Part shown: positions 40,123 to 53,753 of the stretch, one piece after another | How the letters are laid out: each line of letters starts with the position of its first letter | Numbering within the stretch: position 1 is the stretch's first letter | Virus record (IMG/VR): IMGVR_UViG_3300032268_001411 | Span: 1-64,000 of that record | DNA: 64,000 bases | From: a virus | Strand: one strand, 5' to 3' | Position numbers and translations under genes: made by a program | The notes under the pieces: generated by a model | The model's database searches: none | What the model saw: only the letters and a program-made list of their open reading frames with translations | What the model was told of the DNA's origin: nothing

Positions 40123-42099
40123 ATGAATAAGTTAGAAATAATTGACAAAATCTTACAAGATGAAGGAAACCGATTAAGAGAATCATATTTCATCAAAAAT
40201 AGTCCCCATATTCTGGATGAAATATTGCAATATTGCACTAATATTACTCACATACCTTTCAAACAGAAAATTTGGCACTGGGTGAATGATAATCCAAATG
40301 AATACCTTTGTAAATGTGGTAACACAACAACTTTCAATAGAAACTGGAAAGATGGTTATAGAAAATATTGTTCGGCTAAATGCTCAGCAACTGACACTTC
40401 TACAAAAGAAAAACGTAAAAACACAAATGTTCAAAAATATGGGGTTGATAATGTTGCTAAAGCAGATAGCATTAAAAATAAACAAATGGAAACTAATTTA
40501 GATAGATATGGTACTAAATCATCTGCTCAAAACGAAGAAGTTAAAAAGAAATATAAAAATACTATTAAGAAGAAATATGGAACTGAATATTATTTTCAAT
40601 CAGATGATTTTAAATTGAAATCAATGGATTCCAATTTAGAAAAGTATGGAACTCATTTTACCAAAACAGAAGAATATAAAGAAAAAACTAAGAAAACTAA
40701 TTTAGAAAAATTTAATAATGAGTGGTACACACAAACAGAAGAGTATAAAGAGAGATATAAAAAAACTTCTTTAGAAAAATGGGGTGTTGAAAGCTTTCTA
40801 CAATCAGAAGAACTTAGAAACATTTTAAAAAATAATAAGCCCGAAATAATAGAGAAAATTAAAAAAACATCACTACATAAATGGGGTGTTGAATGGTATA
40901 ACAAAACCGATGATTTTAGGAATAAAATAAAGGAAAAGTGGGAAAGTGGTGTCTATTCGAATATAAAATCAAAATCGATAATTACAAATAATCTTTTATA
41001 TGGATTTGATTGGTTTACTCAAACAGAAGAATGGAGGAATTATTTAAAGTCTGATGAATTTAGGAATAAAATAAAATACTCACTTATTGAAAAATCTAGC
41101 GAACATTATAAAAATATAGGATATGTTCTATTGGATATTGAAAATGACTTTGTTACATTAAAGGGTAACTGTGGACACACATTCAAAATAAAAATCTACA
41201 ATGCGAGTAGAAGGAACATCAATGGATTAATTGTATGTACAGAATGTAATCCAATTAATATAAGCCAATCTGGTTCTGAAATAAACCTCGTGAGTTGGCT
41301 AAATCAACATATAGAATTAGAAACAAAAAACAGAAGTCAAATTTCACCACTTGAGCTAGATATATACATTTCTTCTAAAAGTGTTGCAATTGAATATAAT
41401 GGACTATATTGGCATTCAGAACTTTACAAAAACAAGAAATATCATTTAGAAAAACTTCTAAGATGTAATGAAGTCGGTATAGACTTAATTCAAGTTTGGG
41501 AAGATGATTGGTTAGAAAGACAAGAAATAGTTAAGTCTATAATCCTCTCTAGACTTGGATTGATTCAAAATAAAATTGGTGCGAGAAAGTGCCATATCGA
41601 ATTTATCCAGGATAGAAATTTAGTGAATAATTTTTTTGATAACAATCATATACAAGGAAAGACTAATTATAAGTTTGCTGTTGGGTTGTTTTATAATGAA
41701 GAATTAGTTTCTTGTATGTTATTCAATAAACCAAAAAAGGATTTTGAATTAGTAAGATTCGCTAATAAAATAAATTTAACTGTGAGTGGGGCAGCATCAA
41801 GACTATTTAAATATTTCAACGATAATCAAGATGTTTCTGAGATAGTTTCATTTGCCGATAGGGCAACTTTTAATGGTAATTTATATAGGGAATTAGGTTT
41901 TGAATTTGTCCATAGGACGGAACCAAATTTTTGGTGGATAGTAGACGGCAGAAGAAAACATAGATTTACTTATAATAAACAGAAATTAATAAAGGCTGGT
42001 GGTGATCCGAATAAAACTGAAGTCCAAATAATGAATGAAATGGGATATCAAAGAATATTTGGATGTGGACAAGATAAATATGTTTATAAAAAACACTAA
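40123..42099 (+). CDS. Free-standing homing endonuclease, largest copy
   Basis: 658 residues. The N-terminus (FKQKIWHWVNDNPNEYLCKC, then YCSAKCS) is a zinc-ribbon domain also present in the 3291 copy. Eight repeat units follow ([K/R]YG or KWG every 22-24 residues; some are longer), a central strand region with CGHTFKI and CTECNP, the nuclease core (ELDIYISSKSVAIEYNGLYW, then HSE, LIQVWEDDW), and a GNAT-like C-terminus (NNHIQG, FADRATFNGNLYRELGFEF). It lies between the capsid gene and a putative decoration gene, on the late strand. It is the only large copy on the plus strand. Confidence 0.75.
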   Translation: MNKLEIIDKILQDEGNRLRESYFIKNSPHILDEILQYCTNITHIPFKQKIWHWVNDNPNEYLCKCGNTTTFNRNWKDGYRKYCSAKCSATDTSTKEKRKNTNVQKYGVDNVAKADSIKNKQMETNLDRYGTKSSAQNEEVKKKYKNTIKKKYGTEYYFQSDDFKLKSMDSNLEKYGTHFTKTEEYKEKTKKTNLEKFNNEWYTQTEEYKERYKKTSLEKWGVESFLQSEELRNILKNNKPEIIEKIKKTSLHKWGVEWYNKTDDFRNKIKEKWESGVYSNIKSKSIITNNLLYGFDWFTQTEEWRNYLKSDEFRNKIKYSLIEKSSEHYKNIGYVLLDIENDFVTLKGNCGHTFKIKIYNASRRNINGLIVCTECNPINISQSGSEINLVSWLNQHIELETKNRSQISPLELDIYISSKSVAIEYNGLYWHSELYKNKKYHLEKLLRCNEVGIDLIQVWEDDWLERQEIVKSIILSRLGLIQNKIGARKCHIEFIQDRNLVNNFFDNNHIQGKTNYKFAVGLFYNEELVSCMLFNKPKKDFELVRFANKINLTVSGAASRLFKYFNDNQDVSEIVSFADRATFNGNLYRELGFEFVHRTEPNFWWIVDGRRKHRFTYNKQKLIKAGGDPNKTEVQIMNEMGYQRIFGCGQDKYVYKKH

Positions 42100-51273: not shown

Positions 51274-52659
51274 ATGGGATTTTGGAAAGACCAACAACAA
51301 AAACAATTCGAAGGAGGTAGAGTCATAAAATTTACTGATGATTTTTGGCAAATGCTCGATAGAATTGCCATCGGCGCTCGAGGCAAAGGACACGAAAAAT
51401 TAATTTGGGATATATCAGGATTAGACTCAAATTCAACTATAAAAAACCCCATGGGAGTTGAACAAGTAGATATGTCAGATAACCAGTGGCACTTCGACCT
51501 AATAGTAAATGGTAAAAAAACAAAAATAAAAGTCTCTCAATTTATTAGAAACTTCTTCGGCGATGAATTCGATAGAAACGAAATCTATGACTTCACTCTT
51601 GAATACAACAAAATCATAGACAACCTAACAGAGTCTGATACATCTAATAGAATTACACCAAGACAATTTAAGTTTGAACCACTCAATGTAAGAGATACCT
51701 TTATTTCCCTTGTCACAGAAACCTATCCAATGGGTCACGAAGATGAACTACTACCATATATTACACCAGGACTTAAAAGAGATAAATTCGGTAACTATTA
51801 TTATATAATTGGTGATAGTGATACAGCTTTTACTTGCCACTTAGATACAGCATCAAGAAATAAAACTAATGTCAATTTAGTTTCACACCAAAAAGATGGA
51901 CAAGATTTTATTATAACTGATAAAACATCCATTTTAGGGGCAGATGATAAGGCTGGTGTTACAATCCTAATGTATATGATTGCTAAAAAAATACCAGGTG
52001 TTTATTGGTTTTTCTATGGTGAAGAAAGAGGTGGTCAGGGTTCGGCTAAAGTAGCAAATAACTTTGAAAACTATAAATTTATGAAAGGTATCAAAAAAAT
52101 GATATCCTTTGATAGAAGAAATTACTACTCAGTAATCACTCAGCAAATGAATTTACAATGTTGCTCAAATGAATTTGCTGATAATCTTTGTAAAGAACTA
52201 AATAAAAGTGGATTAAAATTAAACTTAGATCCAACCGGTGTATTTACTGATTCAGCTAATTTTATTGATTTAATTCCTGAATGTACTAATGTATCTGTGG
52301 GTTATTTTAACGAACATACACACGATGAAATGCAAAACATAACTTACTTAGAGAAATTATGTAAAGCTTGTGTAAATGTAAATTGGAAAGGATTGAAATC
52401 TTATAGAAAGATTGGTTTAGATGATGATGTATTCTTAAAATATAGTAGACTAATTAAAGTCTTAAAAAGAAATACTTTTTATAATAGTGATAGTACCAAG
52501 GGTTCTGCTGGAAAACTCTTGATACAATTAGAGATTGTTGATTCAGATCCAGATCACCTTTATCAGGATTTGGTAGACCTACAAAAAATATTTGCAACAC
52601 ACAGATTGGATCCAGATATTACATTTGATGAACAATTTATAAAAATTGAATTAAGTTAA
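51274..52659 (+). CDS. M20-like zinc peptidase with extra N-terminal domain
   Basis: 461 residues. Residues 1-140 form an additional domain (FWQMLDRIAIGARGKGHEKL, WHFDLIVNGKKTKIKVSQFI) absent from the paralogue at 45080-46036. The peptidase follows with the same motifs: FTCHLDTASR, ILGADDKAGVTI, FFYGEERGGQGS, ISFDRRNYYS, TDSANFIDL and VGYFNEHTHDE. The metal ligands and catalytic Glu appear intact. It is located between the NFACT-R gene and the tmRNA, so a role in clearing peptides or tagged fragments is tempting but not shown by the sequence. Confidence 0.8.
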   Translation: MGFWKDQQQKQFEGGRVIKFTDDFWQMLDRIAIGARGKGHEKLIWDISGLDSNSTIKNPMGVEQVDMSDNQWHFDLIVNGKKTKIKVSQFIRNFFGDEFDRNEIYDFTLEYNKIIDNLTESDTSNRITPRQFKFEPLNVRDTFISLVTETYPMGHEDELLPYITPGLKRDKFGNYYYIIGDSDTAFTCHLDTASRNKTNVNLVSHQKDGQDFIITDKTSILGADDKAGVTILMYMIAKKIPGVYWFFYGEERGGQGSAKVANNFENYKFMKGIKKMISFDRRNYYSVITQQMNLQCCSNEFADNLCKELNKSGLKLNLDPTGVFTDSANFIDLIPECTNVSVGYFNEHTHDEMQNITYLEKLCKACVNVNWKGLKSYRKIGLDDDVFLKYSRLIKVLKRNTFYNSDSTKGSAGKLLIQLEIVDSDPDHLYQDLVDLQKIFATHRLDPDITFDEQFIKIELS

Positions 52660-52661
52660 AA

Positions 52662-53318
52662 ATGAGACTAAAGAAATATTTAGAATTAATTAAGGAATCT
52701 AAAAGTATAGATGGTTCAATTTTACAAAAATTACAAATCTATCTTACTGATTCAATCGGAAGTAGCGTTCGTTCATTAGGACTAACTGCTACTGATATGC
52801 AACAAATCTGTACTGATTTAGATATTGAAACTGTAGAAGAGTTTTTAGAATTTTATCCATTCCCGAATCAAAGAATTAGGGGATACGTAGAAGAGTTTTT
52901 CTCTGGTAAAGGGGAAGAATTATTCTACGGACAAGATGAAGAAGACTATTATAGTTTCGATGATGATGATGATGACGATGATGACGATGATGAGGAATAT
53001 GTAGAAGAGGATGAAGAGGATTTGGGTGGGGTGGCAGCATTAGCACACAGGATGTTAGAAGAAAGTGGTCTTGAGAATTTTTATGTTTCGAATAAGGGTA
53101 ATAATATTTCGATTCAATTTGTCTTAAACAAAAAGGAGAAGTTCTCTAAACTAACAAAGATACTCGGACTTATAAAGAAATTAGGTTCTGATATTCTAAT
53201 CCAATATGATTCTGAAATGGATTTATGGGAAACAAAAAGAGAAGATCCACTTTTAACTTTTGATTTCTATTATAATAAGGACACAAAAGGAAAATTTAAA
53301 GAAGATTTGCCTTTTTAG
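52662..53318 (+). CDS. Acidic protein with capsid-targeting-like leader
   Basis: 218 residues, starting two bases after the peptidase gene. The N-terminus MRLKKYLELIKESKS fits the leader motif. A helical domain (LQIYLTDSIGSSVRSLGLTA) is followed by a run of about 11 Asp and then Glu-rich sequence (residues 100-125), and a C-terminal mixed domain (LARLIHK-like helices are absent; strands NISIQFVLNKKEKF). Function unknown. Its coupling to the peptidase and closeness to the tmRNA make it part of the same accessory cluster. Confidence 0.55.
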   Translation: MRLKKYLELIKESKSIDGSILQKLQIYLTDSIGSSVRSLGLTATDMQQICTDLDIETVEEFLEFYPFPNQRIRGYVEEFFSGKGEELFYGQDEEDYYSFDDDDDDDDDDDEEYVEEDEEDLGGVAALAHRMLEESGLENFYVSNKGNNISIQFVLNKKEKFSKLTKILGLIKKLGSDILIQYDSEMDLWETKREDPLLTFDFYYNKDTKGKFKEDLPF

Positions 53319-53367: not shown

Positions 53368-53718
53368 GTGGGTGAAATTGGCAATCGATTCGCGAGGTGG
53401 AGTTAGTTCTGCAAACATCGGTGGATATTATCCGATTAACAAATAGATATCAAAACGCTTTAAACGGCAACACAAACGAAGTAGGAAGCAAAGAAGATTT
53501 AGTATTTGCCCTACGCAACAACATCCTTACGGTCAACGAGGTAGCTGCTTAAGCTGAACAGTTCCAAACAGTCCAGACACTGAAAAGTCTCGTTGAAAGT
53601 CAGAATAAAACGTTAAACTTAACTGAATATTTTGTCCATTTAGAAAAATTGACTAAGTTTGTAAATGAAGAATTAAAAACAATCGAAGAAGACCAGGGTT
53701 CAAATCCCTGCACCTACA
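53368..53718 (+). ncRNA. ssrA: Phage-encoded transfer-messenger RNA (tmRNA) with an expanded tag
   Basis: The ends form a 7-bp acceptor stem (GTGGGTG 53368-53374 with CACCTAC 53711-53717) with a G3-U70 wobble, the alanine identity element. A T-arm with the 5-bp stem CAGGG/CCCTG and loop TTCAAAT precedes the 3' strand. CCA is not encoded. The 5' part (ATTGGCAATCGATTCG) resembles the tmRNA D-region; TTAGTTCT (53403-53410) can pair with AGAATTAA (53669-53676) as helix P2, and a hairpin lies at 53417-53436. TATCAAAACG precedes the tag as in Bacteroidetes tmRNAs. The tag frame starts at GGC 53466 with GNTNEV and ends VNEVAA before TAA 53550: 28 residues instead of about 9. It rescues stalled ribosomes and tags their products. 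Confidence 0.8.
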
Positions 53719-53723
53719 CAATC

Positions 53724-53753
53724 AAAAGTCTCAAATAAATTTGAGACTTTTTC
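53724..53753 (+). terminator. Terminator after tmRNA
   Basis: Stem AAAAGTCTCAAA / TTTGAGACTTTT with loop TAAA and a T-run. Confidence 0.9.

Follow-up and report, generated by a model that had tools for sequence, protein, structure and literature searches.

In established tmRNA biology the molecule is alanylated by way of its G3–U70 pair, is delivered by SmpB and supplies a resume codon, after which a tag is translated and the chain released. The tag is usually about 10 residues long. The stretch of viral DNA analysed here (the window: 64,000 nucleotides, positions 1–64,000 of IMG/VR record IMGVR_UViG_3300032268_001411) holds, at 53368–53718, what a sequence-only reading took to be a phage tmRNA with a tag frame of 28 codons, enlarged from about eight. 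The locus raises the question of whether such a tag is real, how it arose and what a virus might gain from it. Our overall reading, to which we give a probability of about 0.7, is that this is a working phage tmRNA, that its long tag is ancestral to a clade of phages and selected as a peptide, and that the tag is probably a degron.

That the locus is a genuine tmRNA is close to certain. The Rfam model RF00023 aligned end to end with 53368–53721 in a cmscan search (positions 1–374; 41.6 bits, E 3.6e-15), a score falling just under the Rfam gathering score of 47, and ARAGORN run on the window did not detect the tmRNA at 53368–53718. The other Rfam E-value matches (SpF41, PhrS and similar) were rejected as chance or as overlap with the T-arm and terminator, and a single-sequence thermodynamic fold was uninformative (z -0.74). 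The parts of the gene, all on the plus strand, are as follows.

53368–53718, plus strand: tmRNA (ssrA) gene, from the RF00023 match and an alignment of 51 sequences, with mature ends placed by homology
53368–53374, plus strand: 5' strand of the acceptor stem, GTGGGTG, containing G3; 7 of 7 pairs with 53711–53717
53375–53391, plus strand: D-loop region with GG (AAATTGGCAATCGATTC), the GG being absent from relatives with a GGCRG-type T-loop
53417–53451, plus strand: pseudoknot 1, stems ATCGG/CCGAT and GATAT/ATATC, from pairing and covariation
53466–53552, plus strand: tag reading frame, 28 codons and a TAA stop, GNTNEVGSKEDLVFALRNNILTVNEVAA, from homologous tags and an in-frame synonymous excess
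53694–53710, plus strand: canonical T-arm, CAGGG-TTCAAAT-CCCTG, with a 5-bp stem and the loop TTCAAAT, from the sequence
53711–53717, plus strand: 3' strand of the acceptor stem, CACCTAC, containing U70; pairs with 53368–53374
53724–53752, plus strand: intrinsic terminator, AAAAGTCTC-AAATAAATTT-GAGACTTTTT, a hairpin followed by a T-run

The acceptor stem with its alanine determinant, the normal T-arm, the terminator and the 28-codon frame (53466–53549 plus TAA) had all been described in the sequence-only reading, and all of them hold. Acceptor pairing is intact in each of the 51 aligned sequences, the window among them, as is the G3–U70 pair that specifies alanine identity. The discriminator A lies at 53718 and CCA is incompletely encoded, the DNA reading ACA. 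Pseudoknot 1 is positioned upstream of the resume codon; its first stem is paired in 100% of the 51 sequences and shows compensatory changes, while its second is 79% paired. The window's tmRNA combines a canonical T-loop with a D-loop that has no D-stem, and the terminator hairpin and T-run occupy the same place in most of the aligned relatives.

The long tag is shared by a large family. Pattern scans of IMG/VR together with a profile search gathered about 110 homologous tmRNA loci, from IMG/VR and from two genomes of 634 and 642 kb, with tags of 27–30 residues and the core NEVGTxEDLVxALQNN. The 54 distinct tags follow the consensus GNxNEVGTxEDLVxALQNNxLxVxEL, to which a variable stretch of two or three residues and a terminal A or V are added; 33 aligned tags show no variation at V6, V13 or L16. 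Some of the hits are biased because one search pattern required part of the tag core; a pseudoknot pattern blind to the tag nevertheless led, for most of its matches, to these tags. Existing tools detect few of these genes: the Rfam cut-off was passed by two of the 16 loci tested (L022, 63.6 bits; L158, 57.4 bits), ARAGORN gave no result for 105 of 110, and neither detects the homologues that the 634 and 642 kb genomes carry without annotation, which were reached via a weak blastn match. An exact search of IMG/VR for the window's T-arm and acceptor gave no match, and looking for the tag sequence in proteins encoded elsewhere by these phages recovered only the tmRNA itself. Across 84,980 bacterial and archaeal species the first tag pattern had no matches; a broader one had two, both rejected as ordinary protein frames. 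Three other possible phage tmRNAs with a motif like pseudoknot 1 were seen in passing (L135 near 2186, L138 near 4093 and L167 near 2275), and these candidates carry unrelated long tags, read by eye (ANNVRPMFAKKKVATTFYAKRVLAAA; GKTKNVPVIEMITEMRAAA).

The carriers appear to be huge T4-like phages. The record containing the window spans 75,593 bases and is a virus contig, probably a fragment, and the window encodes a T4-like portal, a gp23-type capsid protein, a prohead protease and a tail sheath; immediately after the major capsid protein gene there is a large homing-endonuclease-like gene at 40123–42099 (phrog_3339, DUF7487). The portal is 75% identical to that of LR756502.1 (642 kb) and 72% to that of LR745206.1 (634 kb), falling to 55% for LR756504 (636 kb), 49% for LR756501 (735 kb), 35% for LR756500 (462 kb) and 33% for Lak phages. 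Al-Shayeb et al. 2020 (PMC7162821) describe complete huge-phage genomes of 634, 636, 642 and 735 kb, use the clade name Mahaphage, and predict Bacteroidetes hosts for five Mahaphage genomes above 634 kb. LR745206.1 and LR756502.1 are thus putative ‘Mahaphage’ genomes, and the hosts of the long-tag family are predicted in that literature to be Bacteroidota. Two neighbouring genes recur beside the tmRNA.

51274–52659, plus strand: peptidase family phrog_4191 gene, second upstream of the tmRNA, from PHROGs (E 2.3e-66)
52662–53318, plus strand: gene for an acidic protein with no family match, directly upstream of the tmRNA, from tblastn

In 86 loci of the family the peptidase gene is a close neighbour of the tmRNA, and in 53 the acidic protein gene has a tblastn match close to it.

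Substitution patterns suggest that the tag is maintained as a peptide. Within a 15-codon core, 60 of the 139 changes inferred on a tree from which the tag columns had been left out are synonymous (0.43), against a random expectation of 0.25 ± 0.03; the observed fraction was reached in none of 400 simulations, and there is no such excess in the +1 and +2 control frames (0.20 against 0.23, and 0.12 against 0.21). This tree-based test with frame controls replaced a simple pN/pS of 0.53 over unique cores, which could not settle the matter given the skewed codon use. Since the synonymous excess is present in the tag frame and absent from the others, the frame is taken to be translated; length differences within the tag are multiples of three throughout the 51-sequence alignment. 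It can be said with high confidence that the long tag is both translated and selected. The same bases also form two RNA hairpins.

53488–53509, plus strand: RNA hairpin within the tag frame, GCAAA-GAAGATTTAGTA-TTTGC, from covariation
53525–53541, plus strand: second RNA hairpin within the tag frame, CCTT...GAGG, at the position of tmRNA helix 5, from covariation

In the first, around the EDLV codons (alignment columns 138–141/154–157), all four pairs have changed on both sides and 95% of cells are paired; in the second (columns 174–177/187–190) the corresponding values are three of four pairs and 91%. The covariation score over the four helices tested was reached by none of 500 shuffles. Linked residue changes in the tag, T-R...A against S-N/K...F, are accounted for by this base pairing, so part of the conservation of the tag is due to RNA pairing. 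Taken with selection on the frame, the covariation indicates that peptide and RNA are both constrained.

The tRNA-like elbow varies across the family. The TTC T-loop is retained in 12 of the 51 aligned sequences, including the window, and seven of those 12 have the D-loop GG. A further 27, among them the phages of 634 and 642 kb, have a GGCRG-type T-loop on a stem that is mostly 6 bp, and have lost the D-loop GG; examples are L001:2988–3370 and L002:2728–3108, which with 25 other relatives carry the loop GGC[A/G]GT[A/G]. With the 6-bp form, acceptor plus T-stem would total 13 bp, the figure also found in bacterial tRNA-Sec. The contact between D-loop and T-loop may have changed to match a phage SmpB.

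The largest relatives encode proteins with which such a tmRNA could act. Of the family records first checked, the five largest (276–642 kb; W01, W02, G001, G002 and G011) each have an SmpB scoring above the curated cut-off, and the one SmpB that was scanned passed both NCBIfam equivalog cut-offs. Among seven related records, four have ClpP (W01, W02, G001 and G003) and four have a two-AAA ATPase of about 700–710 residues with a ClpB_D2-small domain (W01, W02, G001 and G002), termed ClpC-like because one scanned protein has a UVR motif, without a Clp_N domain. At L210:725–2830, and in its homologues L211–L213, there is a ClpC-like unfoldase with a UVR motif in which an acidic N-terminal stretch replaces the Clp_N domain. 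SmpB, ClpP, Clp ATPase and Lon were not found on the window's own 75.6-kb record, an absence that says little because the contig is probably a fragment. Lon was also considered as reader of the tag and set aside, being absent from the 10 records searched. SmpB, ClpP and a Clp ATPase are also encoded by phage Lak-A1, which has a 10-residue tag. Their presence is therefore not tied to the long tag, and this weakens a Clp-specific link to it.

A working scheme can be proposed from these parts. The tmRNA would be charged with alanine through G3–U70 and delivered, with an SmpB that the largest relatives encode themselves, to ribosomes stalled on broken messages; translation would resume at GGC and stop at TAA, where the chain would be released carrying Ala and a further 28 residues. 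The middle of the tag, which opens with the helix-capping pattern T/S-x-E-D, may serve as a recognition element made up of the capping motif and a short helix (x-E-D-L-V-x-A-L). An AF2 model of a 30-residue family tag places a helix at residues 9–17 with modest confidence (mean pLDDT 74, pTM 0.37). The small hydrophobic end, [A/V]-COOH, may be where an AAA+ protease first engages the tagged protein. In E. coli, tag variants ending LVA and AAV are still degraded and destabilise GFP (PMC9097571), and by analogy the A/V end would fit an AAA+ protease degron. Altered recognition of the tagged proteins by protease or adaptor is plausible, and on balance we favour a phage-specific degron. The reader may be the phage's ClpC-like unfoldase, lacking the N-domain, together with ClpP, rather than host ClpXP, although that the phage Clp proteins are the main reader is doubtful. 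More speculative still, and rather unlikely as a whole, is a picture in which the huge phages of Bacteroidota possess a trans-translation and proteolysis line of their own: the phage tmRNA and SmpB would add a conserved, partly folded tag of about 29 residues, its sole reader would be the N-domain-less ClpC-like protein with ClpP, the tag codons would double as RNA hairpins, and half the family would have an elbow remodelled to suit the phage SmpB.

The tag might instead be no degron at all, shielding rescued proteins from host ClpXP or rerouting them, a phage compartment or adaptor being examples of a destination, with ribosome recycling still taking place. The replacement of the host LAA end by A/V ends such as ATV, MAV and AVA would suit this, as would an internal motif that exceeds the needs of a simple C-degron; yet all 54 tags keep a small hydrophobic end of a kind that E. 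coli degrades in its LVA and AAV variants (PMC9097571), and related phages have Clp proteins, so we regard shielding or rerouting as unlikely. It is less probable again that RNA structure drove the extra length, with two hairpins added to the messenger part and the peptide mostly a by-product. The strong covariation of both hairpins, and the residue changes that track their pairing, speak for such an origin, but the synonymous excess is confined to the tag frame, the lengths change by multiples of three, and amino-acid conservation is also seen in the unpaired loop GAAGATTTAGTA and in the flanking EV and LQNN codons. A tmRNA that is decaying, or a decoy that blocks host trans-translation and does no tagging, would have a parallel in the tag-less RNA of phage DS6A, which has been suggested to block host trans-translation (PMC4131195). 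The covariance score below the Rfam cut-off and the non-canonical T-arm of about half of the aligned relatives would agree with this; the acceptor stem and G3–U70 intact in 51 of 51 sequences, the intact pseudoknot 1 and the purifying selection on the tag frame make it highly improbable.

The origin of the length can be weighed in the same way. The sequence-only reading proposed a recent insertion of 60 bases by duplication into an ancestral GNTNEVAA tag of this phage, with a 9-base near-repeat as its trace. The near-repeat (AACGAAGTA/AACGAGGTA) does exist, but it is not evidence for duplication, because 27% of codon-shuffled window tags hold a 9-mer repeat of equal quality; its 3' copy (NEVA) is restricted to the window's subclade, others having VEDLATV, VNELEVA and the like. 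With the same long core in close and distant members of the family, and about 110 homologues with a long tag, such an insertion is contradicted and has next to no probability. What does stand is expansion from a short tag at some time. Tags of 10 residues occur in Lak-A1 (DDEIDFRMAA), Lak-B5 (DDEIEFRMAA) and LR756500 (GNNAEMRMAA), and a portal tree rooted on Vibrio phage nt-1 groups the long-tag phages in a single clade with 97% support, separate from the short-tag phages. Since outgroup phages have ordinary 10-residue tags, expansion took place somewhere in the ancestry of the long-tag clade, the simplest reading being that it occurred in the clade's ancestor. LR756504 has a 24-codon tag, DNVNSFEQSILNELFAPVEMAVAA, read by eye, in a tmRNA at 280507–280863 (L255) that is above the Rfam cut-off and missed by ARAGORN, and LR756501 has a divergent tmRNA candidate at 718300–718820 (L233; 21 bits to RF00023) with a 33-codon tag, GDYKMNAEDMMSIPTSLTGKVATESFVEDLVLA; these 24- and 33-residue tags are too dissimilar to prove one origin. 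Separately, tags of the VEDLATV type (L045, L112 and others) contain EDL twice (REDLVAAL...VEDLATV), and a 9-mer near-repeat is present in 36 of 60 family tag DNAs, compared with 27% when the window's tag is shuffled. The repeats within these tags may stem from an ancient internal duplication that is distinct from the one first proposed. The AA end was likewise said to be kept; this is true of the window's tag (VAA), the only one of the 54 distinct tags to end so, 31 ending in A and 23 in V.

A working tmRNA with an ancestral, peptide-selected long tag that is probably a degron has partial counterparts elsewhere. The tag of Mesoplasma florum, AANKNEENTNEVPTFMLNAGQANYAFA, has 27 residues and is read by that organism's own Lon, a dedicated protease largely orthogonal to the E. 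coli system (PMC9097571). By analogy, it offers a natural precedent for a tag of this length with a dedicated protease, the two kinds of tag sharing a length of about 27 residues, a small hydrophobic end and an internal recognition region, which for the phages is presumed. M. florum is, however, a bacterium whose tag is read by Lon, whereas no Lon was found in the phages searched, and the sequences differ except for a short NTNEV, probably a coincidence. Tags of Bacteroidota, the likely host phylum, are GETSYALAA and GEENSYAMAA; the host and phage tmRNAs share a GGC resume codon and a stop after a small hydrophobic end, but the host tags have 9–10 residues ending YALAA or YAMAA, and the phage tags 27–30 without a Y-A-[LM]-A-A end. 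Lak phages and LR756500 are also huge phages, with a related portal (33–35% identity) and, in Lak-A1, SmpB and Clp genes, but their tags are the ordinary 10 residues ending MAA. Bacillus phage G carries an ssrA whose tag, AKLNITNNELQVA, also ends VA but has 13 residues; SmpB was searched for in that phage and not found. Mycobacteriophage tmRNAs are further phage-borne examples known from the literature (PMC4131195), and a tag attributed to Bxz1 had no match in the phage collection.

Part of this was known already: long tags in mollicutes, and tmRNAs (found by ARAGORN) and SmpB in huge phages, as reported by Al-Shayeb et al. 2020 (PMC7162821). The main-text tmRNA passages of that paper contain no tag sequence or tag family, and ARAGORN as used there misses the tmRNAs of LR745206.1 and LR756502.1. 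A search of about 5.4 million open papers, bioRxiv not among them, yielded no conserved long-tag family of phage tmRNAs, dual-coding hairpins or altered T-arm.

The analysis thus brings to light a large family of phage tmRNAs, for the most part unannotated and mostly missed by ARAGORN and the Rfam cut-off, that keeps a tag of 27–30 residues in which a conserved internal motif and two hairpins occupy the same bases. More than 100 related contigs share the long tag, which selection acting on the peptide seems to have maintained, so the viruses probably label incompletely made proteins with their own tag. The tag is a new candidate orthogonal degron, and it makes testable why a virus brings its own ribosome-rescue tag and whether host proteolysis is redirected by it.
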